DNA of 33,253 nt from Gemmatimonadota bacterium (GTDB taxonomy: Bacteria; Gemmatimonadota; Gemmatimonadetes; Gemmatimonadales; GWC2-71-9). Location of the stretch: positions 388,345-421,597 of the forward strand of contig SHZU01000001.1 in assembly GCA_009692115.1 (NCBI GenBank). The letters are read 5' to 3'. Below the pieces are notes generated by a model. It did not search any database and was not told the DNA's origin. It was given only the letters and a program-made list of their open reading frames with translations. Positions within the stretch are counted from its first letter, which is position 1. Each line of letters begins with the position of its first letter. The translations under genes and the position numbers were made by a program. Positions 16,453 through 32,079 of this stretch are shown piece after piece.

Positions 16453-16799
16453 CGAAACCGTCGGACCTCGAAAAAGAGCAGCGGCACCAGCACCGCCAGA
16501 TACCCAAGCGCCGCGGGAAGCGGCGGAAACCGTTCTCGATCGAGCCCCACCGCCACCGCCACCGCCGCGATCCCAAGGAGGCGGAGGCCGGTCCCGACCG
16601 CCCATCGCGACAACAACCCACCCCAGTCACCGGCGCCGATCTTGGGGCCGGCCCACGCCATGGCAACGACCTGGACCACCGTGGCCGTGAGGCCAAACCA
16701 AGCGGCCGCCATCATGCCCACCGATCCAGCGAGCGCCCAGCCCACCAGCGCCGCGACCAGCGTTAGGGCGAGTCCGAATCCCGCGGTTTGTCCGACCAC
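16449..16799 (-). CDS. AtpI-like small membrane protein
   Basis: From the GTG at 16799 the product is 116 residues with about four membrane helices (for example LALTLVAALVGWALAG, AAWFGLTATVVQVVAMAWAG and LGYLAVLVPLLFF). A longer frame upstream overlaps the preceding gene and is not hydrophobic. It begins inside the 3' end of the AtpZ-like gene and ends overlapping the atpB start (ATGA). Size, topology and position between AtpZ and atpB fit AtpI, an assembly helper for the c ring, although sequence similarity is weak. The start is uncertain. Confidence 0.7.
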   Translation of the reverse strand: MVGQTAGFGLALTLVAALVGWALAGSVGMMAAAWFGLTATVVQVVAMAWAGPKIGAGDWGGLLSRWAVGTGLRLLGIAAVAVAVGLDRERFPPLPAALGYLAVLVPLLFFEVRRFR

Positions 16800-17014
16800 G
16801 AGCGCATCTTGCCTTCCCGCTTGATACTGAAGAACCCAAGTACGGAGCCGACCACCATGCCAACCAAGGTGAAGAGCGGCGTAGTGTGGATCCACCGGTC
16901 GAGCGCCAGCCCACCCAGTAGGAACATCACGATCGCTCCGGCGAACCGCGTGGCGGCGGCGAGGGGACTAGGGGTCCCGGCGCCGCCGGCCGAATTCGGT
17001 TCCTGGGTTCGCAT
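16763..17014 (-). CDS. AtpZ/AtpI family protein
   Basis: This 83-residue protein has two membrane helices (AAATRFAGAIVMFLLGGLALDRW and LFTLVGMVVGSVLGFFSI) separated by a short turn with the characteristic LDRWIHTTPLF. This is the AtpZ-type pattern found first in many ATP synthase operons, linked to ion handling or c-ring assembly. The ATG at 17014 is preferred to a TTG at 17023. It is the first gene of the ATP synthase operon. Confidence 0.85.
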   Translation of the reverse strand: MRTQEPNSAGGAGTPSPLAAATRFAGAIVMFLLGGLALDRWIHTTPLFTLVGMVVGSVLGFFSIKREGKMRSWSDKPRDSDSP

Positions 17015-17032
17015 TGGCGCCAAAGATATTCG

Positions 17033-17052
17033 CTTGTGAAATTTTTCGCAAG
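17033..17052. promoter_or_regulatory. 20-bp near-palindrome upstream of the ATP synthase operon
   Basis: CTTGTGAAA (17033-17041) and TTTCGCAAG (17044-17052) form an inverted repeat with one mismatch in nine and a 2-base centre, 19 bases before the AtpZ-like start. It is unusually AT-rich for this window. The 94-base gap 17015-17108 should hold the operon promoter, so a repressor or activator site is plausible. No strong -35/-10 pair was found. Confidence 0.4.
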
Positions 17053-17108
17053 CAACTAATGGCGCAGCTCAACTCTTTATCCAGCAAGTGATTAGGCGAT
17101 GCCAGCAT

Positions 17109-18725
17109 CTAATGGGGCCGGGCCGGAACCCGGCAGGAGTAATTGGCCGCCTCGGCGGTCGACCCGGTTCCCCGATATTCCGCCACCTTGGGGTAGGCGC
17201 AGAGCGGCCGGCTGACCGGAGCGGCCTTGGCTGGGTCCAAAAGCGGCTCGCCCGGCCGGATGCCGGCACCGATGATCTGCTCGGGGGCCACGCCGTTCTC
17301 GACCCACCGATTGAGCGCGGCCACCATGTCCCGGCCGGGATCGCCGGCATGGGCCGAAGGCTCGTTCTGGCCGAAATCGGCGGGTCCGATGCCGCCGCCG
17401 CAGTGCCCCATGCCCGGGACCATGAACAAACGGTAGAACTCCGGCACCGACGGACCCAAGGTCGCGAGGACCTGCTCGTAGTATTCGATCGAGCCCGGCG
17501 CCGGGATCGCGGCGTCACCCCAGCCGTGGTACTGAATGAGCTTCCCGCCCCGGGCCCGGAACGGTCCGAGGTTGGAGTCGGTGGCATCGAGCACCGGAGC
17601 GAGTTTGGCCATGGCGGTCGCAAGGTCGCGATCGAAGTCCATGGTCCGGTAGTCCCAATCAGGCTTCTCGAACACCATACTTTGGTAAAAGGTCGTGCCG
17701 AACCAGGCCAGGAACGGGAGCGGTTGCTCTGGACTGGCCACCACCCAGCGATGCCAGTTGCCCATGATCGCCTCGGTGCCGGGCACCGCCCCCGCGTAGA
17801 TCTGCTCCCCAGTCCGCGGGTTCCGCGGCCCCTGGTAGATCTTCCGGAGGGCCGCCAGCTGGGCCGCCGTTAGGCAATCCGCGCCGTCCGCTCCGGTACA
17901 TTGGAGCGGCGCCGGATCGAACCGGCAGATCCGGGGATCCTCGATCAGCCCGTCGGCCACCCGGTCGAGCCGGTCGCAGGCGGCCGCGGCGGCCCGCTGG
18001 ATCAGGCCCAGCTTGGCGACCGGAATGGCGCTCCCGGCCGTCTCGTTGAGGGCCCTCCAATTCCACACCCCGGAGGTCAGGAGCCGGGTCCAATTGTTGG
18101 CGGGGGCGCCGGCGATGATCCCGTCGAAGTCGGCGGGATACCGTTGGGCCTCCATCAACGCCTCGCGGCCACCATCGGAGCAGCCCACGAAATACGAACG
18201 GCTCGCCGCCTTCCCGTAAAACGACTCGACGAGGACCTTGGCGTGGACCGCCGTGAGGTGGACCGCCCGGTGCCCGAAGTCGACGACCTTCTCCGGATGA
18301 CCCGCCGCGAACACCGGGCTCATCCCGGTATGTCCGTTGTCGGTGCCGGCCGTGGCAAAGCCGCGCTTCAATCCGTTGGCCAGCGAGGACGCGGGGATGC
18401 TCCCCGCGTATCCACCATTCCCCGCCTGCTGGAACTTCCCGTTCCAGGTGGCCGCCGCCGGCAGCCACACCTCGAATTTGATCTCCGAGTCCGCCGTCGG
18501 CCGGGCCGTGCCCTGAACCCGGCAGTAGGCCGGCAGCGCCATCGGTGAGCCCGGCAACCCGTCGGCCGGCGGCGTAAACACCCCCGCCGCTACCTCGGTT
18601 GCCGCGGTGACCACCGCGTCCGCCAGCCTCGTCCCAACCAAGCTCCCACAGGCCCGCGGCGCGGCCGCCGACCGCGCCGACCCGGCCGCCAGCACGACCA
18701 TCCCCGCTACCGCAAGACGTCTCAT
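17109..18725 (-). CDS. Tannase/feruloyl esterase family protein, exported
   Basis: The start at 18725 is preceded by GAGGGG at 4 bases. The in-frame ATG at 18737 has no such site. The 538-residue protein begins with a signal peptide (MRRLAVAGMVVLAAGSARSAAA). The nucleophile lies in GCSDGG (Cys182-Ser183), the acid is Asp404 in YHGWGD, and His441 is followed by Cys442 in GMGHCGGG. This is the CS-D-HC motif of the tannase family, where the two Cys form a disulfide holding the triad. Other Cys are consistent with an exported fold. Such enzymes hydrolyse aromatic esters such as gallate or ferulate esters of plant material. It is divergent from the MoxR gene and upstream of the ATP synthase operon. 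Confidence 0.93.
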   Translation of the reverse strand: MRRLAVAGMVVLAAGSARSAAAPRACGSLVGTRLADAVVTAATEVAAGVFTPPADGLPGSPMALPAYCRVQGTARPTADSEIKFEVWLPAAATWNGKFQQAGNGGYAGSIPASSLANGLKRGFATAGTDNGHTGMSPVFAAGHPEKVVDFGHRAVHLTAVHAKVLVESFYGKAASRSYFVGCSDGGREALMEAQRYPADFDGIIAGAPANNWTRLLTSGVWNWRALNETAGSAIPVAKLGLIQRAAAAACDRLDRVADGLIEDPRICRFDPAPLQCTGADGADCLTAAQLAALRKIYQGPRNPRTGEQIYAGAVPGTEAIMGNWHRWVVASPEQPLPFLAWFGTTFYQSMVFEKPDWDYRTMDFDRDLATAMAKLAPVLDATDSNLGPFRARGGKLIQYHGWGDAAIPAPGSIEYYEQVLATLGPSVPEFYRLFMVPGMGHCGGGIGPADFGQNEPSAHAGDPGRDMVAALNRWVENGVAPEQIIGAGIRPGEPLLDPAKAAPVSRPLCAYPKVAEYRGTGSTAEAANYSCRVPARPH

Positions 18726-18826
18726 CACGCCCCTCATTTTTTTGGTTGACGTCCCAATCTACCACTCCCGCCACCGCCTCTTGCCTCCACCCCCCCGCAA
18801 CGTTTCCTTTCGCCCCCACGTAAGGT

Positions 18827-18854
18827 GCCGAGCGCCGAGCGCCGAGCGCCGAGA
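18827..18854. repeat. Four tandem GCCGAGC heptamers
   Basis: Three exact GCCGAGC units and a fourth ending in A occupy 18827-18854, in the 152-base gap between the divergent tannase and MoxR genes, 24 bases before the MoxR ATG. The same heptamer occurs twice in tandem at 15591-15604. No other promoter signal is evident in this gap. Slippage-prone repeats here could alter spacing of the MoxR promoter or leader. Confidence 0.6.
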
Positions 18855-18877
18855 CCTTTACCAGGCTTCCCAACTTC

Positions 18878-19900
18878 ATGGCCGCACCCCAACGCGTTCC
18901 ATCCAACGACGTCGAAGAACTCCGCCGCCTTGCCGGTGCCATGGATTCACTCCGATCCCAAGTCGCCAAGCGTATCGTGGGGCAAACGGAGGTGGTCGAC
19001 GGGGTCGTGACCGCGATCCTGGCCGGCGGCCATGCCTTGTTGGTGGGCGTTCCCGGCCTGGCCAAGACCTTGATGGTCCAGACCGTGGCTGAGGCGCTGG
19101 AGTTGTCCTTCAACCGGGTCCAGTTCACCCCGGATCTGATGCCGGGCGATATCACCGGGACCGAAATCGTCGAAGAGGACCCGGCCACGGGGCGGCGGGC
19201 GTTCCGGTTTGTGCCCGGGCCGATCTTTGCCCACGTCGTGCTGGCCGACGAAATCAACCGGACTCCTCCGAAGACCCAGGCCGCGTTGCTGCAGGCCATG
19301 CAGGAGCACCAGGTCACGGCGGCCGGCAAGACCTACGCGCTGCCCGATCCGTTTTTCGTACTGGCCACCCAGAATCCGATCGAGCAGGAGGGCACCTATC
19401 CGTTACCCGAGGCCCAGCTCGACCGGTTCATGCTCGATTTGCGGGTGAGTTATCCGAGCAAGGCCGAGGAAGAGGCCATCGTCGAGCAAACCACCGGATC
19501 GCGGAAGGTCAAACTCGAGCCGGTCCTCGATGCGGCGGCCCTGCACGGGATGCAGGACTTGGTGCGGCGGATTCCGGTCTCGAAGGGCCTGATCGCCTCG
19601 GCGGTGACGTTGGCGCGGATGACCCGGCCGGTGGATGCGGAGTCGCCGGCGTTGGTGAAGGAGTACGTCGAGTGGGGCGCGGGCCCGCGCGCGTCCCAGT
19701 ACCTGGTGTTAGGCGCCAAGGCCCGGGCGGCGATGGCGGGCCGCCCGATGGCGGATCTCGACGACGTGAAGGCCATTGCCCCGTTCGTGTTGCGGCACCG
19801 GGTGGTGACGAACTTTGCGGCCGAAGCGGCCAGCCGCAGCAGCGACGACCTGATCCGGGAGTTGGTGGCGGGCTCCGCTTGGCAGACGCGGCGGATCTAG
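18878..19900 (+). CDS. MoxR-family AAA+ ATPase
   Basis: This 340-residue protein has Walker A GVPGLAKT (57-64), Walker B VLADE (121-125), a sensor Asn in ATQNP (166) and an Arg in QLDRFMLD (183), all in MoxR spacing. MoxR ATPases act as chaperones that help mature or activate other proteins, usually with a DUF58 protein and VWA-domain proteins encoded just downstream. Here no such partner follows; a convergent DUF1801 gene ends 17 bases after the stop. The ATG at 18878 lacks an obvious ribosome-binding site, so a start at MDSLRSQ (residue 22) is possible. Confidence 0.94.
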   Translation: MAAPQRVPSNDVEELRRLAGAMDSLRSQVAKRIVGQTEVVDGVVTAILAGGHALLVGVPGLAKTLMVQTVAEALELSFNRVQFTPDLMPGDITGTEIVEEDPATGRRAFRFVPGPIFAHVVLADEINRTPPKTQAALLQAMQEHQVTAAGKTYALPDPFFVLATQNPIEQEGTYPLPEAQLDRFMLDLRVSYPSKAEEEAIVEQTTGSRKVKLEPVLDAAALHGMQDLVRRIPVSKGLIASAVTLARMTRPVDAESPALVKEYVEWGAGPRASQYLVLGAKARAAMAGRPMADLDDVKAIAPFVLRHRVVTNFAAEAASRSSDDLIRELVAGSAWQTRRI

Positions 19901-19917
19901 CGCCCGTGCCGGATGCC

Positions 19918-20316
19918 CTAAGCCTTCGGCTTCTTCTTCGCTTTCCCCTTCGAAGTACCGTTCAGAGCAACCGCCTGGCGAATCAGCGCCTTGAAGGCGG
20001 CTGCATTAACCCGGCCGCCTTCGGGAATGTCGATCGCGCGGCGGGTATTGCCTTCGAGACTCGAATTGTAGAGACCGGCCGGATCCTTTAGCGCCGCGCC
20101 TTTGGCGAAGGTCAGCTTCACGACCTGCTGGTAAGTTTCGCCGGTACAGATGATACCGTCGTGCGACCACACCGGCGTCCCCTTCCACTTCCACTCTTCG
20201 ACGACCTCCGGATCGGCGTCCTTGATGAGCTTCCGCATTCGGGCGAGGGTTTCTCCCCGCCAGTCGCCGAGCTCGGCGATTCGGTTCGAGATCAGTTCCG
20301 CCGCGGACGGATTCAT
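19918..20316 (-). CDS. DUF1801 (YdhG-like) domain protein
   Basis: The ATG at 20316 has AAGGGG about 5 bases upstream and gives 132 residues. The DUF1801 pattern is visible: ADPEVVEEWKWKGTPVWSHDGIICTGETYQQVVKLTFAKGA. It is followed by the usual segment on the size and shape of the response (LYNSSLEGNTRRAIDIPEG). It ends in a Lys-rich tail. These small alpha/beta proteins have no firm function. The start codon overlaps the stop of an upstream frame (ATGA) of which only the last two dozen codons remain. Confidence 0.88.
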   Translation of the reverse strand: MNPSAAELISNRIAELGDWRGETLARMRKLIKDADPEVVEEWKWKGTPVWSHDGIICTGETYQQVVKLTFAKGAALKDPAGLYNSSLEGNTRRAIDIPEGGRVNAAAFKALIRQAVALNGTSKGKAKKKPKA

Positions 20317-20384
20317 GGCTTCCCCTTCGGCCGAGGCCGATTGTCGCAATACACCGCCGCCACCTTGTCGATAAACGCTTCCGG
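20313..20384 (-). pseudogene. 3' remnant of an unknown gene upstream of DUF1801
   Basis: On the minus strand a frame reading [22 protein letters not shown] and then TGA overlaps the DUF1801 start codon (ATGA), as in a normal two-gene operon. Upstream of about 20384 the sequence changes to phosphoglucomutase coding on the other strand, so only the C-terminal tip remains. I do not recognise the family. It could be chance open sequence, but the coupled stop/start and codon pattern favour a real remnant. Confidence 0.35.
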
Positions 20385-21001
20385 CGCGGCCCCAGTGGCC
20401 GGCGAGCGCGGTGGTCGGCAAGACCCTGGTGTCGAGCGCCATCATCGACCGGGTCGTTAGCGCCGCCGGCCGCCGCCTCATGGAAGTGCCGGTCGGATTC
20501 AAGTGGTTCACGACGGGGCTCTTCGACGGCCGCTGTTGCTTCGGCGGCGAAGAGAGCGCGGGGGCGAGCTTCCTCCGCCGGGACGGGTCGGTGTGGACGA
20601 CGGACAAGGACGGGCTGCTCCTCGGCCTCTTGGCCGCGGAGATCACCGCCGTCACCGGGAAAGACCCCGGGGAACATTACCGGGAAATCACCGCCGCGCT
20701 CGGTTCGCCGGTCTATACCCGGATCGACACCCCGTGCCCGGCGGCGGCGAAGGCGGGATTCAAGCGCCTGACCCCCGAGGCCGTCACCGCCACGACCCTC
20801 GGGGGTGACCCGATCGAGGCGAAGCTCACCCAGGCGCCGGGCAACGGAGCGGCCATCGGGGGACTCAAGGTCACGACCCTAAACGGCTGGTTCGCGGCGC
20901 GACCCTCGGGCACGGAGAACGTCTACAAGCTCTATGCGGAGAGCTTCCGCGACGCCGGCCACCTCGACCGCGTGGTGGCGGATGCCCAAGCCATGCTGTA
21001 G
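20384..21001 (+). pseudogene. pgm: Phosphoglucomutase, C-terminal fragment
   Basis: From [17 protein letters not shown] onward, about 204 residues match the C-terminal third of alpha-D-glucose phosphate-specific phosphoglucomutase. They include [26 protein letters not shown]-like (here [12 protein letters not shown]), [40 protein letters not shown] and the phosphate-binding [12 protein letters not shown] loop. A full enzyme has about 545 residues; the first roughly 340, with the catalytic phosphoserine and metal loop, are missing. A stop codon lies in frame just upstream at 20372, and the first possible start is a GTG at 20411. The fragment cannot be an active mutase. The 3' end is natural. 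Confidence 0.82.
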
Positions 21002-22136
21002 CGGGTGCTCGGCTAGGGTACTCTAAGATTTTTTCTCTGTCAAAGACTCCGACCAGCGCCGGCCGCTTCAGATCCACGAGTCCCCGGCGGATCCGGACCA
21101 TGGGCACACACCCGGCGCCCCCCGATGCGGCCGGCTCGAACCGGACCCCGTTGTGGACGGCAAAGGCCGGATCCATCCGGCCGCAGGCACCGGCTTCGCG
21201 GCCGGTGGCGTCGAGCGAGGCCAGCCGCTTCTCGAGGGCCTCGAGCGCGAGTCGGGGACCCCAATACACGCTCTTCGGATCCCGGAGCGCCGGGGCGGCG
21301 AACTGCTCTTTCCGGCGTTGATAGTCCGACTCGTCGGATTTGTCGGCCGCATCGAGTTCTCCGGCGAGGGTCGTTGGATTCCGGAATTGCGTCTTCCAAC
21401 GATCGGCCCGCTTCGCGCGCCGCTCGGCCTTGGCCTGCGGCGTCATCGACGCCTCGAGTTGCTCGAGTGACGACTTGGCATTCCGGTCCATGTCGGCGAT
21501 CAGTTTCTTGACTCGCTCGATCTCGCCTTCGAGGAGCACCCCGACTGGAGCCGGCTCGAGGACCGATCGTCCGTCCTTGGTGAACACCAGCATCGAGTTG
21601 TAGAGGGTGCCACCCCCGATCTGACCAAAGGTTCGCGGTTCCGCAAACATGCCCTGCAACGGGTCCTCGGCCACCAATCCGCGAGTGAAGTTGCCCCGGG
21701 TGGCCGGGTCCTCGAGGTTCGGTGGCGTAGGCGGGTTGTTGGTTTCGAACCACGCCAACAAGTGGGCGTCGCCGGTCTTGGGCCACAAAGACCCATCCGG
21801 ACGCAGTTTGACGTCCTGCGGGGCCGACCAGTAGACGATCAATCGTTCGCGGACCGCGCCATCCCAGACCGTCGGCCATGCGATTGCCAGCGTGGCATGT
21901 TTAGCCGGTTGGCTGAAGACTGGCGCGGCCTTCAGAAGATCATAGACCCGTTCAGCGCGGGACCGTGCCGCCCTGAGCTCCGCCGGCGTCAACTGGCGTT
22001 GGGTCGACGGTCGGACGTCGGGGTCGGGGTCCCAGGTCACGATCGAGCTCATCCGCGGGGGAGAAACCGAGGTGACCTGGGCCGTGGCAAGGCCCGGAAA
22101 GAGGGCGAGGCCGAGGGCCAAACGAAGTGGAGTCAT
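20871..22136 (-). CDS. Exported protein of unknown family, 3' end disrupted
   Basis: The ATG at 22136 begins a signal peptide ([20 protein letters not shown]). The next roughly 345 residues look like a real secreted domain: [39 protein letters not shown], a charged helical stretch ([32 protein letters not shown] split by turns) and a Cys-containing end ([25 protein letters not shown]). I do not recognise the family. After VGVFD (about 21045) the codons turn atypical (AGA GAA AAA ATC TTA) and the frame runs 131 bases antisense to the phosphoglucomutase end, stopping only at 20871. The natural C-terminus is probably lost near 21035-21045; the last 50-60 residues are likely artefactual. Confidence 0.6.
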
Positions 22137-22183
22137 GGGGATGGGAGGTATTCGGCCGCGCCTCGAATATCTATCGTCCCTAG

Positions 22184-22198
22184 TTTGTACAGTACGAA
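22184..22198. promoter_or_regulatory. TTTGTAC-A-GTACGAA near-palindrome, putative operator
   Basis: A 15-bp inverted repeat with one mismatch and a single central base (containing TGTACA at 22186-22191) ends 3 bases before the -35 box of the lipid-modification operon. Position and symmetry fit an activator or repressor site. TGTACA-type half sites are used by B12-dependent MerR-family light regulators (CarH/LitR) in other bacteria. Assigning this site to such a regulator is speculation. Confidence 0.45.
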
Positions 22199-22201
22199 AT
22201 A

Positions 22202-22230
22202 TTGACAAACCGCCGCTCTCGACGTATTAT
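22202..22230 (+). promoter_or_regulatory. Near-consensus sigma70 promoter of the lipid-modification operon
   Basis: TTGACA (22202-22207), a 17-base spacer and TATTAT (22225-22230) match the housekeeping consensus at 11 of 12 positions, which is striking in a GC-rich window. Transcription should begin near 22237. This excludes the TTG at 22202 as a start codon for the oxidoreductase and points to the GTG at 22283. Confidence 0.75.
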
Positions 22231-22253
22231 CGACGTTCCAGGGCCTCCGTCCG

Positions 22254-22286
22254 ATGACCAACCCGAACCTTCAGCCAACGGCGTGA
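22254..22286 (+). other. Possible 10-codon leader ORF
   Basis: In the predicted 5' leader an ATG at 22254 opens a short frame, MTNPNLQPTA, whose TGA overlaps the GTG start of the oxidoreductase (GTGA). Neither start has a strong ribosome-binding site. The arrangement could couple translation of the oxidoreductase to the leader, or be chance. Confidence 0.25.
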
Positions 22287-23509
22287 CCAGAGTCGCCATC
22301 ATCGGCAGCGGCGTGTCCGGACTGGTCGTAGCCCGGGGCCTTCGTTCGACCCACGACATCACCGTGTTCGAGGCCGACCGCCGGATCGGCGGGCACGTCC
22401 ATACCTGGACCGTGGAGCGCGAGAGCCGGACCTGGGCCATCGATTCCGGTTTCATCGTGTACAACGAGCGGAACTACCCCCACTTCACCCGGCTCATCGC
22501 CGAGCTCGGGGTTCCGACCCAACCCAGCACGATGAGCTTCAGCGTGCGGCATGACGGCGCCGATCTCGAGTACAACGGCTCGACCATTCGACAACTCTTT
22601 GCCCAAAAGCGGAACCTGCTCCGGCCGTCGTTCCTCCGGATGCTCACGGAGATCCTCCGCTTCAATCGCGAGGCGACGGCGGCGGCCGGAAGCCTTGGCG
22701 ATGCGCCGATTCGCGAGTTGCTGGATCGCGGTGGATATTCCGCCGCATTCCGCGATTGGTATCTGCTCCCGATGGGGTCGGCGATCTGGTCGATCCCCGC
22801 TTCGACCGTGCTCGCGATGCCGGCCCGGTTCTTCGTACAGTTCTTTTCCAATCACGGCATGCTCACGGTGGACGACCGGCCCGAGTGGCGAGTGGTCTCC
22901 GGAGGGTCGTCGCGGTATGTCGGGGCCCTGGTGGCGCCGTTTCGCGACCAGATCCGGACGGGGTCGCCGGTTCGCCGGGTCAGCCGATTCGCCGACCGGG
23001 TCGAGGTCAACGGCGAGGCGTTCGACCGGGTCGTCCTGGCCTGTCACAGCGATCAAGCGCTCGCGATCCTGGCTGAGGCTACCCCGCTGGAGCGGGAGCT
23101 ACTCGGATCGCTCCCCTATCAAGCCAACGAGGCCGTGCTCCACACCGATGCCTCGGTGCTCCCGCGACGGCGGGCGGCGTGGGGAGCCTGGAACTACCGG
23201 CTGGGCCATGATGCCGGGTCGCCGGCTGTCGTGACCTATAACATGAACCTGCTCCAGTCCCTCGAGGCGCCGGTCACGTTCTGCGTCACCCTCAACGGCG
23301 ACCATCTGATCGATCCGGCCCAAGTGATCGGCCGGGTGCAATACCACCATCCGGTCGCGACCGTAGCAGGGGCCGCGGCGCGGGCTCGCCGGAGTGAAGT
23401 GAGTGGCGCCGGACGGACCCACTACTGCGGGGCGTACTGGGGCAACGGCTTTCACGAAGACGGGGTCGCCAGCGGGCTGGCGGTCGTCTCGGAGATTGGG
23501 TCGCCGTGA
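22283..23509 (+). CDS. FAD/NAD(P)-binding oxidoreductase (COG2907-type, amine-oxidase/desaturase-like)
   Basis: From the GTG at 22283 the product has 408 residues and starts almost at the dinucleotide-binding fold TRVAIIGSGVSGLVVARGL (GSGVSG at 8-13), followed by the FAD-binding EADRRIGGH and the segment IDSGFIVYNERNYPHF. The C-terminus has the second FAD motif (YCGAYWGNGFHEDGVASG). This family resembles phytoene desaturases and amine oxidases and is regularly encoded beside DUF1365 and cyclopropane-fatty-acid synthase genes, where action on membrane acyl chains is suspected. Its stop overlaps the next start (GTGA). First gene of a four-gene overlapping operon. Confidence 0.88.
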   Translation: MTRVAIIGSGVSGLVVARGLRSTHDITVFEADRRIGGHVHTWTVERESRTWAIDSGFIVYNERNYPHFTRLIAELGVPTQPSTMSFSVRHDGADLEYNGSTIRQLFAQKRNLLRPSFLRMLTEILRFNREATAAAGSLGDAPIRELLDRGGYSAAFRDWYLLPMGSAIWSIPASTVLAMPARFFVQFFSNHGMLTVDDRPEWRVVSGGSSRYVGALVAPFRDQIRTGSPVRRVSRFADRVEVNGEAFDRVVLACHSDQALAILAEATPLERELLGSLPYQANEAVLHTDASVLPRRRAAWGAWNYRLGHDAGSPAVVTYNMNLLQSLEAPVTFCVTLNGDHLIDPAQVIGRVQYHHPVATVAGAAARARRSEVSGAGRTHYCGAYWGNGFHEDGVASGLAVVSEIGSP

Positions 23510-24288
23510 ACAGTTGCCTCTATCGCGGCACCATCCGCCACCGACGGCTCTCACCGGTGTCGCACACGTTCCGGTATCCGCTGTTCATGTGCTACCTCGA
23601 TCTGGCCGAGCTCCCCGCGCTGTTCGACCAGCGCTGGCTTTGGTCGGCCCGCCGGCCATCCGTGGCATGGTTCCGCCGTGCGGACTATCTCGGCGATCCG
23701 TCGATCCCCCTCGACACCGCGGTTCGCGATCTCGTCACCGAGAGAACCGGCCGCCGGCCGACCGGCGCGATCCGACTCCTCACCCACCTCCGCTACTTCG
23801 GCGTGGCGATGAACCCGGTGAGCTTCTACTACTGCCACGACCCGGCCGGCCGGGGCATCGAGGCGATCGTGGCGGAAATCACCAACACGCCGTGGGGCGA
23901 ACGACACGCGTACGTCCTGGTGCCGGGGCCCGAGCAGCAGACCGCCCGCTCGATCGGATTCCGGCTCGTCAAGGAGTTTCACGTTTCGCCGTTTCTGCCG
24001 ATGGAGATGGGCTACGACTGGACTTTCTCCGCGCCCGGCGAACGACTGGCCGTGCACATGAAGAATCTGAGCCGCGGTGGCCGGGTGTTCGATGCGACGC
24101 TCGCTCTTCGGCGGGAGCCGATCACCACCGGCTCACTGGCAGCGGCGCTGGCCCGTCATCCCTGGATGACCGCCTCGGTGGCCCTCGGCATTTACTGGCA
24201 AGCGCTCCGGCTTTGGCTCAAGCGGGCGCCGTTCCACGTTCACCCCTCGCTCCGGAAGACCCATGACGTTGCTGACCGCGCTCGCTGA
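23506..24288 (+). CDS. DUF1365 family protein
   Basis: This 260-residue protein starts at a GTG overlapping the previous stop. DUF1365 (COG3496) signatures are clear: SCLYRGTIRHRRLSPVSHTF at the N-terminus, RLLTHLRYFGVAMNPVSFYYC, EITNTPWGERHAYVL, and KEFHVSPFLPMEMGYDWTF. There is no signal peptide; a hydrophobic stretch near 228-240 may touch the membrane. The biochemical function of the family is unknown, but it is nearly always next to the oxidoreductase and CFA-synthase types found here. The last 26 bases overlap the next gene. Confidence 0.93.
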   Translation: MNSCLYRGTIRHRRLSPVSHTFRYPLFMCYLDLAELPALFDQRWLWSARRPSVAWFRRADYLGDPSIPLDTAVRDLVTERTGRRPTGAIRLLTHLRYFGVAMNPVSFYYCHDPAGRGIEAIVAEITNTPWGERHAYVLVPGPEQQTARSIGFRLVKEFHVSPFLPMEMGYDWTFSAPGERLAVHMKNLSRGGRVFDATLALRREPITTGSLAAALARHPWMTASVALGIYWQALRLWLKRAPFHVHPSLRKTHDVADRAR

Positions 24289-25504
24289 ACGGGCGTTGAT
24301 GCCCCGCCTCGCCCACCTGACGGAGGGCCGGCTCGTCCTTCGCGACGGCGCCCGAACAGCAACGTTCGGCCGCGGTGCCGCCCAGCCGATCGAGGTGGTG
24401 GTCCACGACCGGCGGTTCTACCAATCGGTGGCGTTCGGCGGTCACATCGGCGCGGGCGAGGCCTATGCTGAAGGCTGGTGGACCACCGACGACCTGACCG
24501 GCCTGGTCCGGCTGCTGGCCCAGAATCGCGGCGCCCTCGACGGCTTAGAAACCGGCTGGGCTCGCCTTGCCCAACCGCTCCGGCGGCTCCTCCACGCCAT
24601 GAACCGGAACACCCGGAGCGGGAGCCGCCGGAACATCCAGGCCCACTACGACCTCAGCAACGATTTCTTCCAGACCTTCCTCGACGAGACCCTGACGTAC
24701 TCATGCGGGATCTTCGAGCAACCCGACATGACGATGAGCGAGGCCTCACTCGCCAAGTATGACCGTCTGGCCGCCTTGGTTGACCTCGGGCCGGACGATC
24801 ATGTCGTTGAAATCGGGACCGGCTGGGGCGGGTTCGCGGTCCGAGCCGCCGCCCGGTTCGGCTGCCGGGTCACCACCACCACGATTTCGGCGGAGCAGTT
24901 CCGGTTCGCGAGCCAGCGCGTAGCCGATGCCGGGCTGACCGACCGGGTCACGGTCCTCAACCGGGACTATCGCGATCTCGAGGGCTCCTTCGACAAGCTG
25001 GTCTCGATCGAGATGATCGAGGCGGTTGGCCATGAGCACTACGATACTTTTTTTGCCAAGTGTTCCGAGCTCCTCGCGCCCAACGGCCTGGCCGCGATCC
25101 AATCGATCACGATCCAGGACCATCTGTACGAGGCGGCCCGCCGCGAAGTGGACTTCATCAAGCGGCACATTTTCCCGGGCAGTTGTATTCCCTCTCGCGC
25201 GGTGCTCCGTCAGGCCGCCGAACGGATCGGGCTCACCTTGGTCCGGGCCGACGACATCGGCCGCCACTACGCCGAGACGTTGCGCCGGTGGCGAGCCAAC
25301 TTCCGGGCGAGCCACGACCGGATCACCGCGCTCGGATTCGACGACCGGTTCCAGCGCCTCTGGGACTTCTACTTCTGCTACTGCGAGGGCGGTTTCCTCG
25401 ACGGGGCTATCGGAAACGCCCAGTTGACCTTCGCCAAGGCCGCCGCGGCGGGCCGGCGGATCGTCGCGCCGGATGTGGCCAAGTTCGAGATGGTGGCCGG
25501 ATGA
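24263..25504 (+). CDS. Cyclopropane-fatty-acyl-phospholipid synthase family protein
   Basis: The 413 residues match COG2230 CFA synthases. They show HYDLSNDFFQTFLDE (128-142), TYSCGIF with Cys148, and the SAM-binding loop EIGTGWGG (183-190). SIEMIEAVGHEHYDTFF carries the acidic residue that helps bind catalytic bicarbonate. HIFPGSCIPS, HYAETLRRWR and FYFCYCEGGF, with a conserved Cys, follow. CFA synthases add a methylene from S-adenosylmethionine across acyl double bonds of membrane phospholipids. Where the E. coli enzyme has a His in LLHTIG, this protein has Gln (AIQSIT), as I recall for many bacterial homologues outside the classic enzyme. The product could be a cyclopropane or a methylated acyl chain. 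It overlaps both neighbours. Confidence 0.93.
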   Translation: MTLLTALAERALMPRLAHLTEGRLVLRDGARTATFGRGAAQPIEVVVHDRRFYQSVAFGGHIGAGEAYAEGWWTTDDLTGLVRLLAQNRGALDGLETGWARLAQPLRRLLHAMNRNTRSGSRRNIQAHYDLSNDFFQTFLDETLTYSCGIFEQPDMTMSEASLAKYDRLAALVDLGPDDHVVEIGTGWGGFAVRAAARFGCRVTTTTISAEQFRFASQRVADAGLTDRVTVLNRDYRDLEGSFDKLVSIEMIEAVGHEHYDTFFAKCSELLAPNGLAAIQSITIQDHLYEAARREVDFIKRHIFPGSCIPSRAVLRQAAERIGLTLVRADDIGRHYAETLRRWRANFRASHDRITALGFDDRFQRLWDFYFCYCEGGFLDGAIGNAQLTFAKAAAAGRRIVAPDVAKFEMVAG

Positions 25505-26532
25505 CGTCGCTGCTCAGGTCGGGCCTCGCGCTCGCCGAACGGGGGCTGGTTCCGACTCCGCTGCTCCGCCGGGCCATCCGCGGCCTCTGCGAAGATCGTC
25601 TCGACGAGCTCCGGACCGCGGGGGGCCTCGACCGGTTCATCGCGACGCTCGAGGGGGCGCCGATTGCGCTCCTCCCCGACCAGGCCAACGCCCAGCACTA
25701 CGAAGTGGCCAGCGACTTCTTCTCGCTGGTCCTCGGCCGCCGGCTCAAGTACTCATCCTGCCTCTATGGACCTGGCATCGACACGCTCGACGCCGCGGAG
25801 GAGGCGATGCTCGCGCTGACCTGCGAGCGCGCCATGCTCGAAGACGGGCAGGACGTGCTCGAACTCGGCTGCGGCTGGGGCTCGCTCTCGGCCTTCATGG
25901 CTCGCCGCTATCCGCGGTCCCGGATCGTGGCGGTATCCAACTCGGCCACCCAGCGCGCCTTCATCGAGGCGCGGCGGCTCCCGAACCTCGAGGTGCGGAC
26001 CGCGGACATGAACGGCTTCGATCCGGGCCGGCAGTTCGACCGGATCGTGAGTGTCGAGATGTTCGAACACATGCGGGACTGGCCCACGCTGCTTGGCCGG
26101 GTTGGCGGGTGGCTGCATCCGGCGGGCCGGCTCTTCGTGCATGTGTTCTGCCACGCCCGGGAGGCCTATCCCTTCGACACCGAGGGTGACGACAACTGGA
26201 TGGGGCGGTACTTCTTTTCCGGCGGGATGATGCCGGCGTACGACCTGCTGCCTCGGCTCGCGGGGCCGGCGCTCAGGCTCGAGGAGCGGTGGTGGGTCGA
26301 CGGGACCCACTACCAGCGCACCGCCGCCGGGTGGCGGGCGAATCAGGAGGCCCGCCGCGACGAGGTGCTCCGGGTGCTCCGGACCCACTACGGCCGCGAG
26401 GCGGGTCTCTGGTACCACCGCTGGCGGATGTTCTTCCTGGCGTGCGAAGAACTCTTCGGGTATCGAGGCGGCGCCGAGTGGGGCGTCGGCCACTACCGTC
26501 TGGTTAGGCCGCCGGCTTCGGGTACTGTTTGA
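25501..26532 (+). CDS. CFA-related SAM methyltransferase, coclaurine-N-methyltransferase-like
   Basis: The ATG at 25501 overlaps the previous stop (ATGA); 343 residues. It shares the CFA-synthase plan: HYEVASDFF (67-74), KYSSCLY, SAM loop ELGCGWGS (121-128), SVEMFEHM, HYQRTAAGW and a late Cys in FFLACEELFGY. Its C-terminal half (DNWMGRYFFSGGMMP at 231-245; ELFGYRGGAEWGVGHYRL at the end) resembles, from memory, plant coclaurine-type N-methyltransferases and their bacterial relatives more than true CFA synthases. This suggests simple methyl transfer, perhaps to the acyl chain handled by its neighbours. The substrate is unknown. The last 29 bases overlap the convergent S9 peptidase gene. Confidence 0.88.
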   Translation: MTSLLRSGLALAERGLVPTPLLRRAIRGLCEDRLDELRTAGGLDRFIATLEGAPIALLPDQANAQHYEVASDFFSLVLGRRLKYSSCLYGPGIDTLDAAEEAMLALTCERAMLEDGQDVLELGCGWGSLSAFMARRYPRSRIVAVSNSATQRAFIEARRLPNLEVRTADMNGFDPGRQFDRIVSVEMFEHMRDWPTLLGRVGGWLHPAGRLFVHVFCHAREAYPFDTEGDDNWMGRYFFSGGMMPAYDLLPRLAGPALRLEERWWVDGTHYQRTAAGWRANQEARRDEVLRVLRTHYGREAGLWYHRWRMFFLACEELFGYRGGAEWGVGHYRLVRPPASGTV

Positions 26533-28576
26533 ACCAGCTCATCATGTAGAGCATGGTCCGCATCCAGTTGGACGGCACCGACTCGGTGCCATGCCATTCG
26601 TTCTCGAACCGGAGCAGCTTGGTCGGAACCCCCCGGACCTTGAGTGCGGCGTAGAAGTCCTCGGTCTGCGGCATCGGGGTCCGCATGTCGAGCACGCCGG
26701 TCATCAAGAGCGTCGGGGTGTTGACGTTGCCCACGTACGCGAGGCTCGACTGCTTCCACCACGCCATCGGGTCTTCCCAGAACGGCTTGTCGAAGAAGGC
26801 GTAGGCGAAATACGGCACGTCGGCGTTGCCGGCCATGCCGATCCAATTGGTGACCGGGCAGCGCACCGCCGCCGCCGCGAACCGGTTGGTATGGCCGATC
26901 ATCCAGCTCGAAAGCGCTCCGCCGCCGCTGCACCCCGACACATACAACTGCTTCGAATCGACGTAGCCGCGGCCCAGCACGGTGTCGACGCCCGCCATCA
27001 GGTCATCGTAGTCGGGCCCCGGGTAGGACTTTTCAATCGTCCGGACGAAGGCATCGCCGTAGCCGGTGGAGCCGCGCGGGTTGAGGTAGAGCACCACGTA
27101 CCCGTTGGCCGCGAACGTCTGCCACATCATGTCGAAGCCGACGCCGTACATGCCCTGGGGGCCGCCATGGATCTCGAGCAGCATCGGATACTTCTTAGCC
27201 GGATCGAAGAACGGCGGCTTGACGATCCACCCCTGGATCTTGGCCCCGCCGGTCGACGGGTACCAAATCTCCTCGGCGGTCGCGAGTTTCTTGCCCTGGA
27301 GCAGGTCGTCGTTCACTTGGGTCAACTGGGTGATCTGAACGGCACCTTTCTTGTCGGCCGTCATTCGCACCACGTCGCCGGGTTGCTGGAAGTTCGACCG
27401 GATCCCGACCATTTCACCGGTCCGGGCGATGCTCGACACCGAGAGGGAGTGATTGCCGGTCGTGAGATACCGCGGCGGGCCGGCCAGCGGCACGAAGAGG
27501 ACGTTTTCAGTGCCCCGGTCTCCGGGGGCGACGTAGAGGCCGCTACCGTCGGGGGCCCAAAGCGCATCGGCCCCGCCAAAGGCGCCCATTTCCCGGTCAA
27601 TGGCTCGGGTCAGATCCCGGCTGCCGGAGCCATCGATGTTCATCACGTAGAGATCGGCGGTCTGCCACACGACCGGCAACAGCTCCCGGCCCGCGAAGGC
27701 CACCATCTTGCCGTCCGGAGACACCCGGGGCGCCATCCACGAACCCTTGACCGTCGTGAGTTTCTTCAGGGTGCCCGACCCTACGTCGACCGCGTAAATA
27801 TTCGACTCGCGGAAGTTCCGGTCCGAGTTCGGCTCGGCAAAGCCGTCGAAGAGAATTGCCTGGCCGTCCGGAGTCCAGCTGTGGCTTCCGCCGACGATCA
27901 TGCCATCGAACGCGGCCCCGACGCTCCAGTCTCCGCGGGTGATCTGGCGCGGCGACCCGCCATCGGCCGGCACCACGAACAGATGGGTGAACCCCGGATC
28001 GGTGTAGCCTTGGTGGTCGGCCCGGTAGTGAAGCCGGTCCGCCACCCGCGGCGCCGGGGTCCACTTGGCGTTCGGCGGCGGGGCCGGCATCTCGATAGCC
28101 CACTCGGATGACTTCGCGACCAAGCTCGTGAACGAGATCCACTTGCCGTCCGGCGACCAGGTGAGGTTCCCCGGCGACTCGGTCAGCCGGGTGATCTGGG
28201 TCGTAGCCCCTTCCGCATCCATATATCGGACGAAGATCTGGGCGCCCTTCGGATTCTCGGAGGCCGCCACATACGCAATCCGGGTGCCGTCCGGCGACCA
28301 GACCGCCCCGCCACCCGTCAACAAGAACCGATTCTTGGTGCCGTCGGCGTTCATCTGCCAGATGGCGCCGCTCCAGGTGTCGTTGACCTTGTCGACGAAC
28401 CCGCGCGAATAGAGCACCGTCTTCCCGTCCGGGGAGATCTCCGGGCTCCCGACCCGTTCGAAATCGAGATAGTCGGCCACGCTGAGGGTTGGGCCGGCCG
28501 GTTGGGCCGAGACCGATCCCCGCGGCGCCACGGCGGCCGCCAGGGTCACGAGCACTCCGATTCGAGTCATCAGCAT
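26504..28576 (-). CDS. S9 family peptidase (second copy), exported
   Basis: The ATG at 28576 has GGGAG 5-6 bases upstream; the 690-residue protein begins with a signal peptide (about 1-25, ending SVSAQ). The N-terminal propeller has repeated SPDG/TPDG turns (ISPDGKTVLYS, WSPDGKWISFT, WTPDGQAILF). The hydrolase domain has Ser550 in SGCSGGG, Asp630 in GVLDMRTPM and His662 in NEWHGTES, a complete triad. The nucleophile loop GCSGGG differs from the GGSYGG of the other S9 peptidase at 8052-10175, so they belong to different S9 branches. It likely degrades peptides in the periplasm. A small NTF2-like gene lies 29 bases upstream. Confidence 0.94.
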   Translation of the reverse strand: MLMTRIGVLVTLAAAVAPRGSVSAQPAGPTLSVADYLDFERVGSPEISPDGKTVLYSRGFVDKVNDTWSGAIWQMNADGTKNRFLLTGGGAVWSPDGTRIAYVAASENPKGAQIFVRYMDAEGATTQITRLTESPGNLTWSPDGKWISFTSLVAKSSEWAIEMPAPPPNAKWTPAPRVADRLHYRADHQGYTDPGFTHLFVVPADGGSPRQITRGDWSVGAAFDGMIVGGSHSWTPDGQAILFDGFAEPNSDRNFRESNIYAVDVGSGTLKKLTTVKGSWMAPRVSPDGKMVAFAGRELLPVVWQTADLYVMNIDGSGSRDLTRAIDREMGAFGGADALWAPDGSGLYVAPGDRGTENVLFVPLAGPPRYLTTGNHSLSVSSIARTGEMVGIRSNFQQPGDVVRMTADKKGAVQITQLTQVNDDLLQGKKLATAEEIWYPSTGGAKIQGWIVKPPFFDPAKKYPMLLEIHGGPQGMYGVGFDMMWQTFAANGYVVLYLNPRGSTGYGDAFVRTIEKSYPGPDYDDLMAGVDTVLGRGYVDSKQLYVSGCSGGGALSSWMIGHTNRFAAAAVRCPVTNWIGMAGNADVPYFAYAFFDKPFWEDPMAWWKQSSLAYVGNVNTPTLLMTGVLDMRTPMPQTEDFYAALKVRGVPTKLLRFENEWHGTESVPSNWMRTMLYMMSWFKQYPKPAA

Positions 28577-28605
28577 TCTGTCTCCCTAAATTTGAATTGG
28601 TCTGC

Positions 28606-29076
28606 TCAGTGCGGCAGTTGGTTCCAGGCAGCCTCGGTGATGGCGTCGAGCTGGCGCTCCATCACGATCTGCCAGCGGCCATTCGTCTTGACCAGCAGAG
28701 TCTCCATCCGGCGAATACTCGGCGTCTGCTTGCCGGCGCGGTCCGTGGTCGTGTACTTGAACGCCCCGATCTCAAACGCCGTCGTGGCATCATCCTGCCG
28801 CTTGTCGAACCGGAGTTCCACGGTGGCCCGGACCCCGTCCTTCTTGGCCGTCACCATGTCCTTGCCCCAATCCGCTAGCGTCGTGGCGATCGGCTTGGTG
28901 CCGGTGTTGCTGACCAGGACCGCCGCTGGATGATAGGTCCGGCCCATGGCGACAATGTCGCCGGCCACGACAGATGCCGCCACCGCCGACCACACCTGCG
29001 CGTCGATTTCGGCGCTGGTGGGACTGCCCGCGGGCAAGCTGAGCGCAACCAGGGAAACCAGGGCAAGTCGCAGCAT
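28606..29076 (-). CDS. Exported NTF2-like (DUF4440/SnoaL-type) protein
   Basis: This 156-residue protein starts at 29076 with AAAGG about 8 bases upstream and a signal peptide (MLRLALVSLVALSLPAGSPTSA). The mature part has the alpha-plus-beta cone layout of the NTF2 superfamily: IDAQVWSAVAASVVAGDIVAMGRTYHPAAVLVS, then beta strands, ending KTNGRWQIVMERQLDAI. Such proteins are usually small-ligand binding or enzymatic pockets; no catalytic residues can be assigned. It sits between an S9 and an M14 peptidase and may share their transcript. Confidence 0.8.
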   Translation of the reverse strand: MLRLALVSLVALSLPAGSPTSAEIDAQVWSAVAASVVAGDIVAMGRTYHPAAVLVSNTGTKPIATTLADWGKDMVTAKKDGVRATVELRFDKRQDDATTAFEIGAFKYTTTDRAGKQTPSIRRMETLLVKTNGRWQIVMERQLDAITEAAWNQLPH

Positions 29077-29132
29077 GGGTGAACCTTTTAGTCAGTGGTT
29101 GGATGGTGATGGTCGGGGAAGCTACCCCGGCC

Positions 29133-30407
29133 TCAGGGTAGCCGCCCAAGTTCTTTCGACGCCGGATCGGCGGATTCCCGAATGATGAAGCGCGCCGGCG
29201 ACCCGATCGGAACCCAGACCCGCCCGCCGGCCTGGAGGACCGCATCCGGCATCGGATGCAGGAATCGCCCTGACAAGTCGAGGGTATCGAGGGCAACCGT
29301 CCCCTCGAGATCGCCAACCTCCCGGACCCGGCCACCAACCCGGGCCACCGAATCGTCGAAGTTGATCGCCACATCGGCCCGGAGCGCCCCCGCACCCGGC
29401 ACGACGAGCGAGCCTCCCACCACCAAGAGATCGGAGGCCCCGCCCTGATTGAAGGGCAACGACTCGTACGCCGCCGGGTCGGCCCGCTCGTAACTCCGGG
29501 CGGCAATCGCTTCCAGCACGCCGAGAATCGCCGCGGCGTTCAGGGTCCGAAGTCGTTGCTTCTGGGGGTCGCCGGTCAGGGCGCCGCTCTCGATCAGCAC
29601 GGTGCTGGTCCCCCAAGCCTGCATCAGGTCGCCAAACGCCCGGGGATTGAAGGTGTCGTCATACCGCGCGATCCGGCCGCCGACCGCGTGACCGAAATCG
29701 GTGGCGAGCCAGGCCGCCACTTGCCGAGCCCGACTCCGGACTGGTCCATAACTCCGCGCCTGATCCGCCGGCGGCGGTAGCAACGCGATGGCCGCCTGCT
29801 CGCCCTGCCCGACCCGGGTTCGGGCGTTTTGATCGTGGAGATTGAATCCGAAATCCGGCTCGATCCGGTCGTGGACCGCCTTGAGCACCCGGGCTTCCGG
29901 ACTACTGAGCCGGCGGACATCCCGGTTGATGTCGATGCCCGCCGCATTCTCCCGCTGGAAGACCTCGGCGCCATCGGGATTGAGCATCGGGAGAAAGGTG
30001 ACCGTCAGATCACGGGCCACCCGGTCGCGCAGCGGGCTCGCCTCGGTCGAGGCGAGAAACGCCAAGACATCCGCTAGGGCCATCGTGGCGGTGGCCTCGT
30101 CGCCGTGCATTTGCGACCAGAGGAACACTTTGACCGGGCCGGCGCCAAAGGTGACCGTGCGGAGTTCCCGCCCCTGCATCGAGCGGCCCACCTCGGTGAC
30201 GACGAATCGGTCCGAGGCGAGCGCGGGCGCCACCGCGCGCCAGAACTGGTCGTGGGTGAACCGGCGCTGGCCGATCGCTCCGATCTGGAATCGCTCGGCG
30301 AGGGTGACTCGATCGGCCCAAGCCGTTTGGCCGGCGAGCGGCATCGGGGTTCCTCCGAGCGTCAACGCCGTCAGGACCCAAGCCCCGGCACTCCGAGTAC
30401 GATTCAT
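29133..30407 (-). CDS. M14 family zinc carboxypeptidase, exported
   Basis: This 424-residue protein has a signal peptide (about 1-27, ending LAGQ). All M14 landmarks are in place: zinc ligands His101 and Glu104 in QMHGDE and His191 in FNLHDQ, the substrate pair Asn161-Arg162 in DINRDVRR, NPDG at 143-146, and the catalytic Glu273 in VLIESGA. Family members remove C-terminal residues from peptides or from cell-wall stem peptides. The C-terminal 120 residues form an extra, beta-rich domain of unknown role. The start at 30407 has GAGGG directly adjoining it, closer than usual, so its use as a ribosome-binding site is uncertain. Together with the S9 enzyme it suggests periplasmic peptide breakdown. 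Confidence 0.93.
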   Translation of the reverse strand: MNRTRSAGAWVLTALTLGGTPMPLAGQTAWADRVTLAERFQIGAIGQRRFTHDQFWRAVAPALASDRFVVTEVGRSMQGRELRTVTFGAGPVKVFLWSQMHGDEATATMALADVLAFLASTEASPLRDRVARDLTVTFLPMLNPDGAEVFQRENAAGIDINRDVRRLSSPEARVLKAVHDRIEPDFGFNLHDQNARTRVGQGEQAAIALLPPPADQARSYGPVRSRARQVAAWLATDFGHAVGGRIARYDDTFNPRAFGDLMQAWGTSTVLIESGALTGDPQKQRLRTLNAAAILGVLEAIAARSYERADPAAYESLPFNQGGASDLLVVGGSLVVPGAGALRADVAINFDDSVARVGGRVREVGDLEGTVALDTLDLSGRFLHPMPDAVLQAGGRVWVPIGSPARFIIRESADPASKELGRLP

Positions 30408-30471
30408 CCCTCATCGTACGGCGTCCGGAGCCCTCGGCGCAAGAGACCGACCTGCCCCTTTGGCCGAGACC

Positions 30472-31011
30472 TCAGTAGCCGGCAGCCAACCCAAAGCCCC
30501 GCGGCTCCGTCACGTCGCGATCGTACGCGCCGAGGTCGAACGACGGACAGAAACCGGTGGTGGTCCCGATCGGCTGTCCGGCGGTGACCCGGGTTCCGGG
30601 GACCATGCCCGGCAAGAGCAACACGTGATCGTAGTAGTAGTGGAAGGTCTTCGTCATCTGGATGTCGACCTTGGTGTCGCCGCGCGCCTCGGTCCCCAAG
30701 ACGAACGTGATGACGCCACTCCCAGCCGCGTCGATCGGGCGCTTGCGGCAGTCATTGTGCTGCTGATTGCCGCCGTAGGGGTCGACGAACGAGATATAGA
30801 CATGATCGGTCGGCAGGGTGTGGCCCGGAGGGCCGATCTTGCCGAGCGGAGTGACGGCGATGACCGATGCAGTGTCGATCGGCGATACCGACAGCACGCC
30901 GGGGCCAGTGATCGTGAGGCCGTAGGGGTTGATCCCTTCGGGGTCAGTGGGTCCGGTACCGCCGCTCCCCCCGCCACAGGTGGGAAGGGCAAAGAGGAGG
31001 CCGGCGCTCAG
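30472..31011 (-). pseudogene. M23-like lipoprotein lacking a start codon
   Basis: The frame reads LSAGLLFALPTCGGGSGGTG from 31011, which looks like the end of a lipoprotein signal with lipobox LPTC. No ATG, GTG or TTG lies in frame between there and the neighbouring AlkD-like gene; only a CTG is available at 31011. The mature domain resembles the M23/LytM beta-fold (HYYYDHVLLLPGMVPGTRVTAGQPIGTT, then FDLGAYDRDV). The usual full set of zinc ligands (HxxxD and HxH) is not obvious, so enzymatic activity is doubtful. The 3' end is intact. The first clean internal start, GTG at 30897, would remove the signal and give 141 residues. I infer that the first codons were lost at a junction near 31015. 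Confidence 0.55.
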
Positions 31012-31226
31012 GGAACGGGGGTGGCGAGGATCCGGGCATCGTGGTTGCCGGTAGCCCAGAGCGCCTCGGCCAGCGCCTGATCGACCTTGATGGTCTTGAC
31101 GAGTTTGCCGAGCACGGCATAGCTCACGCCGAACATCGGACTGGTGATGCCGTGGCGTCCGTAGGTCTTCCGGGTTTGCGCCGACCCGGCCTTCTCCAAC
31201 TGTGCCAACACGTCGTCGAGTGTCAT
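31008..31226 (-). pseudogene. AlkD-like DNA alkylation repair protein, truncated
   Basis: The ATG at 31226 lies 4 bases after the psd stop. The 72 residues (MTLDDVLAQLEKAGSAQTRKTYGRHG, split across a turn, then FGVSYAVLGKLVKTIKVDQALAEALWATGNHDARILAT) match the N-terminus of the DNA alkylation repair family (PF08713), whose full members have about 220-240 residues. Just where homologues continue into the next HEAT-like helix the frame reads PVP and stops. The enzyme is therefore cut to one third and cannot fold as an AlkD glycosylase. The breakpoint coincides with the missing start of the next gene. Confidence 0.7.
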
Positions 31227-31230
31227 GGCC

Positions 31231-32079
31231 CTAAGCTCCGCTCGAAACAACGCCCATCCGCCGGCCAAGGACCGACGGGGCTTGGTGGTCGAACCGATCG
31301 AGATTCACGGCCCCTTCCGGGAACAGGAGGATCACGGTGGAGCCGTAGTTGAAGCGGGCCATTTCGGCGAACCGCTCCAATCGGATGTTTTGCCCCCGGA
31401 AAACGGTCCGCTTGGGTTGGTCGGCGTACTCCGGAATATTGACACCGTTCCACACCGTTGCCACACCCGACACCAATAGCGCGCCGACCATCACCGAGCA
31501 CATCGGCCCCAAGTCAGTGTCGAAGTGGCACACCAGCCGCTCGTTCCTGGCAAACAGCCGCGGCACATCGGCCACCGTACCCGGTGACACGCTGAACAGG
31601 CGCCCGGGCACGTGCAGCGTTTCGGCTAAGGTACCGGTCCACGGCATGTGGACGCGGTGATAGTCGCGGGGCGAGAGATAGATGTTCATGAACGAGCCGT
31701 TCCGATACGCCGACGCCAAATCGGCGTCCCCGAGCAGCTCGGCGGCGGTGTAGTCGTGGCCCTTGGCCTGGAAGATTCGTCCGTTCTCGATTCGGCCACA
31801 CTGGCTGACCTTGCCGTCGGCCGGCATCAACAGGGTCTTCGGATCAGGGTCCGGTACCCGGGCGCCGGGCTTCAGTGCGCGGGTGAAGAAGGCGCCGAAA
31901 CTCGGGTAGTTGTCGGGGTTCGGATCGGCCGCTTCGCCCAGGTTGACATCGAAGTTGGCCAACACGGCCCGGATGACCCGGCGTTTGATCCAGGGAGTTT
32001 CCGACTGAGCAATCCGGCAGGCCAGGTCCGACAGAAAGCGATGGGGCAGCAGATACTGCGCCAGGGACGACACTTTCAT
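31231..32079 (-). CDS. psd: Phosphatidylserine decarboxylase proenzyme
   Basis: The protein has 282 residues from the ATG at 32079 (an ATG at 32082 is equally possible; GGAG lies just upstream). Family motifs are all present: FFTRALKPG, the catalytic MPADGKVSQ (Asp88), [11 protein letters not shown] (His144), [18 protein letters not shown], and the self-cleavage site YGST. There Ser247 becomes the pyruvoyl group after cleavage between Gly246 and Ser247. The site is YGST rather than the more common LGST. The enzyme makes phosphatidylethanolamine from phosphatidylserine at the inner membrane. No phosphatidylserine synthase gene is adjacent. Confidence 0.96.

Follow-up and report, generated by a model that had tools for sequence, protein, structure and literature searches.

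Which fatty acid do four genes that overlap start to stop make, and under whose control? The question is raised by a stretch of 33,253 nucleotides from a Gemmatimonadota bacterium (GenBank assembly GCA_009692115.1, 3.1 Mb and 97% complete; contig SHZU01000001.1, positions 388,345 to 421,597), hereafter the window, in which an initial annotation had pointed to a four-gene lipid-modification operon. We propose that the four genes, read as ufaD-ufaO-ufaM-fufM, encode all the enzymes needed for a dimethyl furan fatty acid, and that light releases the operon through a LitR/CarH-type operator. We give this reading a probability of about 0.82. The operon is real, its pathway is already known and there is a good case for light control; it is no new kind of system. 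New are the operator at the ufaD promoter, a litR gene at most 10 kb away in 5 of the 9 operon-bearing genomes (the window's included), and a fold model with a balanced equation for UfaO.

Four open reading frames were confirmed on the forward strand at 22283-26532. Each overlaps the next, by 4 nt (GTGA) between ufaD and ufaO, 26 nt between ufaO and ufaM, and 4 nt (ATGA) between ufaM and fufM, and with these overlapping starts and stops the four genes are co-translated, as annotated. The first (22283-23509, +, 408 aa) matches the Pfam families Amino_oxidase (PF01593, 4e-21) and NAD_binding_8 (PF13450), has LkcE as its best relative among solved structures and is a ufaD-like, putatively flavin adenine dinucleotide (FAD)-dependent acyl desaturase. 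Its longest mechanical reading frame begins at TTG 22202, within the -35 box; we set the start at GTG 22283 because this yields the conserved N terminus (VAIIGSGVSGL) and the TTG falls inside the promoter. The second gene (23506-24288, +, 260 aa) is the sole DUF1365 gene of the genome (PF07103, 2e-84, 283 bits against a cut-off of 25) and encodes a ufaO-like, putative furan-forming oxygenase. The remaining two, a ufaM-like acyl methyltransferase dependent on S-adenosylmethionine (SAM; 24263-25504, +, 413 aa; CMAS 2e-82, 277 bits) and a fufM-like SAM-dependent methyltransferase of the coclaurine N-methyltransferase (CNMT) branch (25501-26532, +, 343 aa; CMAS 9e-35, 121 bits), share 27% identity. 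They are the only two CMAS genes of the genome, where a search found no further one.

These four families are those of a published pathway (Lemke 2020, PMC7380195). There, phospholipid-bound cis-vaccenate becomes the monomethyl furan acid 9M5 by the action of UfaM, UfaD and UfaO, and FufM makes the dimethyl acid 9D5. UfaO bears DUF1365 and UfaD the NAD/FAD domain, while FufM (RPA0924) and UfaM are distant members of the cyclopropane fatty acid synthase superfamily (26%). The initial annotation was right in seeing lipid modification and in noting that relatives of these enzymes make methylated or furan fatty acids. Yet its order, oxidation and then methylation, does not hold for the published pathway, in which an 18:1 chain is methylated by UfaM before UfaD desaturates it, after which UfaO uses O2 to form the furan ring and FufM adds a second methyl; nor is the step of DUF1365, which had been left unassigned, any longer obscure, since it is UfaO that closes the ring (PMC7380195). 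In the operon studied here, UfaM would thus transfer the methyl of SAM onto an 18:1-type chain of membrane phospholipids, at its double bond, which shifts; UfaD would remove two hydrogens (with FAD and O2), leaving a methylated conjugated diene; UfaO would add O2 and close the ring; and FufM would add the second ring methyl. The product, with its chain length and position, is predicted in this way. Singlet oxygen destroys furan acids, which are proposed to act as messengers and whose genes belong to the core sigmaE-ChrR regulon (PMC6852236); the suggested link to light or singlet oxygen was sound. Release by light would supply a membrane scavenger of singlet oxygen.

The same set recurs elsewhere, as the gene-neighbourhood comparison proposed at the outset brings out. 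A profile search of genome contigs gave at least 592 UfaO relatives, of which the best 80 loci were taken and their neighbours sought with tblastn at 1e-6, short contigs depressing the counts. UfaD is found at 79/80 loci, UfaM at 78/80 and FufM at 59/80, together with DUF1295 (54), a desaturase (41), DUF2878 (39), a lipocalin (35), a LitR-like gene (19, matches taken without a check of the B12 domain) and a ChrR-like gene (6). By their record titles, some of which are doubtful for metagenome-assembled genomes, the loci span Pseudomonadota, Planctomycetota, Nitrospirota, Acidobacteriota, Gemmatimonadota and others. Since one Gemmatimonadota operon holds all the genes for a dimethyl furan fatty acid, and such loci occur in many phyla, measurements so far probably understate by far how common these antioxidant lipids are. 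A plasmid of Acinetobacter schindleri carries desaturase-ufaD-ufaO-ufaM-DUF1295-fufM near a photolyase gene, and the Gemmatimonadota relative G021 has the same order; given these larger clusters, and those at other loci, the four-gene set of the window is a trimmed form of a widespread cluster. The only full DUF1295 protein of its genome belongs to another subfamily (34-38% identity). The DUF1365 cut-off is passed in 9/81 genomes (10 at E 1e-3) and in 1/6 of the genus, and a quick tree puts the window's UfaO beside that of G065 as its sister (support 86), both inside a group made up mainly of Gemmatimonadota (90). In G025, a single contig, the cluster breaks inside ufaO into two halves, 0.68 Mb from each other and on opposite strands (L024 and L025, at 1.016 Mb and 1.696 Mb on C1), by either inversion or misassembly. 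The comparison names constant companions without an assigned role: the desaturase and, recurrent neighbours across L075-L154 with no assigned pathway role, DUF1295, DUF2878 and the lipocalin. Our literature search, mostly without subscription papers, found none that joins DUF1295 to furan fatty acids or FufM.

How is the operon controlled? Its sigma-70-like promoter, TTGACA-17-TATTAT at 22202-22230 (+), matches the consensus at 11/12 positions with the 17-base spacing first noted. It is the only match of at least 11/12 (spacing 16-18) in the window, and none appeared in any of 12 first-order Markov resamples. A lax scan (at least 9/12) of 13500-33253 found 2 against 2.0 expected, and therefore only the 11/12 quality is unusual. 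The -35 hexamer overlaps the core (TTGTACA-N10-TTGACAA, 22185-22208) of a predicted LitR/CarH-type operator region (22161-22221), and the operator itself, TTTGTACA, begins at 22184, the start of the stretch first noted. With the -35 box inside such an operator the promoter is probably dark-repressed; hence, of the "very strong promoter" initially claimed, the near-consensus match stands, while constitutive strength probably does not. The operon would then most likely be silent in the dark and released by light, a switch that can be tested.

The operator was scored with a matrix re-estimated from 14 of the 25 operon-negative litR promoters (50 litR matches in 43 genomes gave 30 fetched loci, 25 of them operon-negative), its seed consensus having been written by eye from litR promoters that include those of operon-bearing genomes. 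The ufaD promoter outscores every other site on either strand of the window, at 14.2 and 9.3 against a maximum of -1.2 elsewhere. None of 500 column-permuted matrices reaches this score, while the region tops the window in 20/500, so that base composition is not the explanation. For comparison, the genome's own litR promoter scores 45.4 and that of the paralogue 12.7. The litR promoters carry a two-plus-two array of 11-bp repeats (TTTGTCAAGnn TnTGTCCAA ... TTGACAnnnnTTAGACA), which resemble the CarH repeat nAnnTnnACAn (PMC8156234). The core pattern without mismatch occurs twice in the genome, here and at a litR promoter, a circular result as the pattern was derived from these sites; with one mismatch, TTGTNNA-N10-TKGACAA gives 5 matches, which count a site on both strands, hardly more than the 3 of the reversed control. 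Among relatives, litR is found in 8/9 operon-bearing genomes, the window's among them, and in 24/72 others (Fisher p 0.002, genomes treated as unrelated), and it lies at most 10 kb from the operon in G010, G016, G021, G027 and G033. The operon promoter of G010 passes the permutation test (0/500), and the sites of G021, G033, G027 and G016 lie in the region shared with, or heading, litR. In G021 the nearby litR also adjoins a lycopene cyclase gene.

The genome of the window has MerR-type regulators with a B12-binding domain at L026:6114-7052 and G000:C5. The motif Wx9EH is present in 30/30 LitR loci examined, while the cobalamin histidine is replaced by V in the C7 LitR of this genome and in G005, and by Q in G011. 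From its sequence, C7 LitR may not sense light through B12. Both litR genes (L026:6114-7052 and L027:6587-7555) are divergent from a fasciclin-domain gene, and fasciclin genes also adjoin the operon-linked litR of G021 and G033.

The C7 substitution bears on the alternative that survives best, a constitutive promoter whose operator-like sequence is a leftover or belongs to another MerR-type regulator. Such a promoter would agree with a C7 LitR that lacks the histidine, and with an operator shorter here, at two clear half-sites, than in litR promoters. We nevertheless think it rather unlikely, as a matrix trained without operon-bearing genomes ranks the site first in the window, unmatched by any permuted matrix, and a second LitR copy (C5) keeps the histidine. 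We infer that a LitR copy acts at this operator. LitR/CarH would seem to replace sigmaE-ChrR as the regulator here: control by the latter is not favoured, no extracytoplasmic function sigma factor or ChrR gene having been found among the scanned neighbours (the genome itself was not searched for ChrR), though other loci have ChrR. In Pseudomonas mendocina, ufaM is induced 25-33-fold by light, and the light-inducible promoter studied there has a LitR site across its -35 region (PMC9758184).

A second alternative concerns the fourth gene. UfaD, UfaO and UfaM might make the monomethyl furan acid while the fourth protein methylates something else, for instance an amine, as its closest solved relatives are N-methyltransferases (best 6gkv, a coclaurine N-methyltransferase, E 3.9e-55). 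But FufM (RPA0924) is itself 37.9% identical to Arabidopsis LIME1 (AT4G33110), which we take to be a CNMT-like protein, so that this branch fits FufM. FufM-like genes also stand at 59 of the 80 UfaO loci, and fufM is coupled to ufaM by ATGA in the window, all of which makes amine methylation improbable.

The third gene differs from cyclopropane synthases at its active site. The UfaM alignment holds the window and 75 of the 78 loci found, after length and stop filters (UfaD: 76 of 79; FufM: 53 of 59, each plus the window). In 76/76 sequences Q280 takes the position of the active-site H (LLHTI) of E. coli Cfa (6bqc), an H shared by 7qos, 5z9o and 1kp9 (two other Cfas and CmaA1), and E250, also in 76/76, replaces the G before the FEH motif of the cyclopropane synthases compared; on these two changes a canonical cyclopropane synthase was rejected. 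The hydroxymycolate synthase MmaA4, whose methyl transfer does not end in a cyclopropane ring, has E and Q at the same positions. With E. coli Cfa, UfaM shares the fold family, the SAM site, E253 and Y336, the two residues being kept in 76/76. That the gene is nonetheless an ordinary cyclopropane synthase, in an operon making cyclopropane chains with further trimming, is very improbable: the CMAS family and the kept E253 and Y336 speak for it, as do plant relatives of the same branch (Sterculia), which make cyclopropanes and count against a strict E/Q rule, but the H-to-Q and G-to-E changes speak against it, and so do the constant neighbours UfaD and UfaO, for which no part in making cyclopropanes is known. 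A Halomonas ufaM expressed in E. coli yields a furan fatty acid intermediate (PMC12089945).

Several observations weigh against a complete, light-released furan set. The four-gene assignment draws on family, company and signature, not on direct identity to RSP1090, RSP1091, RSP2144 or RPA0924. The position of the Cfa cysteine is not conserved in UfaM (S in 45/76, C in 25/76). The desaturase gene, upstream of ufaD in seven relatives, here lies elsewhere (G000:C1:162108; 66-76% identity to cluster copies), without the operator. The matrix scan supported no operator at the operon promoters of G077 and G065, the latter without a litR at 1e-30, and the site of G025, positive in a first scan, is weak and reached by 70/500 permuted matrices. 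To these must be added the valine of C7 LitR.

How UfaO closes the ring is the part of the pathway for which a structural model was sought. From 75 sequences (the window and 74 of the 80 loci; three failed length or stop filters and three more were omitted), AlphaFold2 gave a model with a predicted local distance difference test score (pLDDT) of 94.3 and a predicted template modelling score of 0.91. It places beta strands over residues 4-204, as a putative beta-barrel, before C-terminal helices. A sequence search found no relative among solved structures, and Foldseek no match with E <0.001. The closest solved folds are the spirocyclases OlmO/OssO and nitrobindin, all weak (Z 6.3-7.8, root-mean-square deviation 4.1-4.6); the best is 7sfn at Z 7.8, nitrobindins score 6.3-7.6, and Z <8 can reflect a common arrangement. 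The modelled resemblance is too weak for a claim of kinship. Residues H12, R14, N103, N127, K156 and H159 are invariant in both alignments. By formula, ring closure balances: methyl diene C19H34O2 + O2 gives furan acid C19H32O3 + H2O, which would make UfaO a dioxygenase with loss of water. Lemke 2020 saw no need for added reductant, and the authors supposed that the extract provided it (PMC7380195). One might speculate that UfaO is a lipocalin- or nitrobindin-like barrel holding the methylated diene, with the six invariant residues as its site, where a dioxygenase-type 1,4-addition of O2 and water loss proceed without external reductant, and that in Gemmatimonadota a B12-type LitR/CarH repressor gates it, light switching on an O2-consuming furan shield; we hold this as a tentative idea. 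It would give the oxygenase step a candidate fold and an equation that balances.

Against known systems, the operon differs in arrangement and control. The Rhodobacter sphaeroides and Rhodopseudomonas palustris pathway has the same four families, with the same roles expected, yet R. palustris has ufaMOD (RPA2569-2571) and a separate, unlinked fufM (RPA0924), and in R. sphaeroides ufaDO (RSP1091-1090) stands without ufaM (RSP2144), which lies elsewhere, whereas the window holds all four genes in a single overlapping operon (PMC7380195). Control there is by sigmaE-ChrR, in contrast to the LitR/CarH-type operator found here. In Pseudomonas putida and P. mendocina, a light-inducible ufaM cluster controlled by class II LitR has in common with the operon a light-associated LitR-family repressor and a site over the -35 box, with a 24-bp dyad (PMC9758184). 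That LitR acts with a LOV protein, while the LitR proteins of the window's relatives keep Wx9EH and mostly the cobalamin histidine, as in CarH. Arabidopsis has a homologous set (AtUFAMD1, AtUFAO1 and LIME1/AtFUFM1) with a proposed role in making furan fatty acids on lipid droplets; it is eukaryotic and fuses UfaM and UfaD in one protein (PMC10940516). In our literature search, mostly without subscription papers, none of the four papers that bring together at least three of the topics concerned, such as CarH, LitR and furan fatty acids, mentions Gemmatimonas.

Around the operon, the adjoining S9 peptidase gene (window 26502, L156) has 85% identity in G003, a genome without a DUF1365 gene, where DNA similarity to the window stops at the end of the peptidase gene. 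Divergent from ufaD is a 392-aa gene (20961-22136, -) with no Pfam match and no match in the five other genomes of the genus. Beyond it lies a C-terminal remnant of a phosphoglucomutase (20411-21001, +) that retains part of domain III, and domain IV, its N-terminal part missing. An antisense DUF1801 reading frame (19918-20655, -) overlaps the remnant, the gene preceding it is an unrelated MoxR ATPase, and the region looks rearranged.

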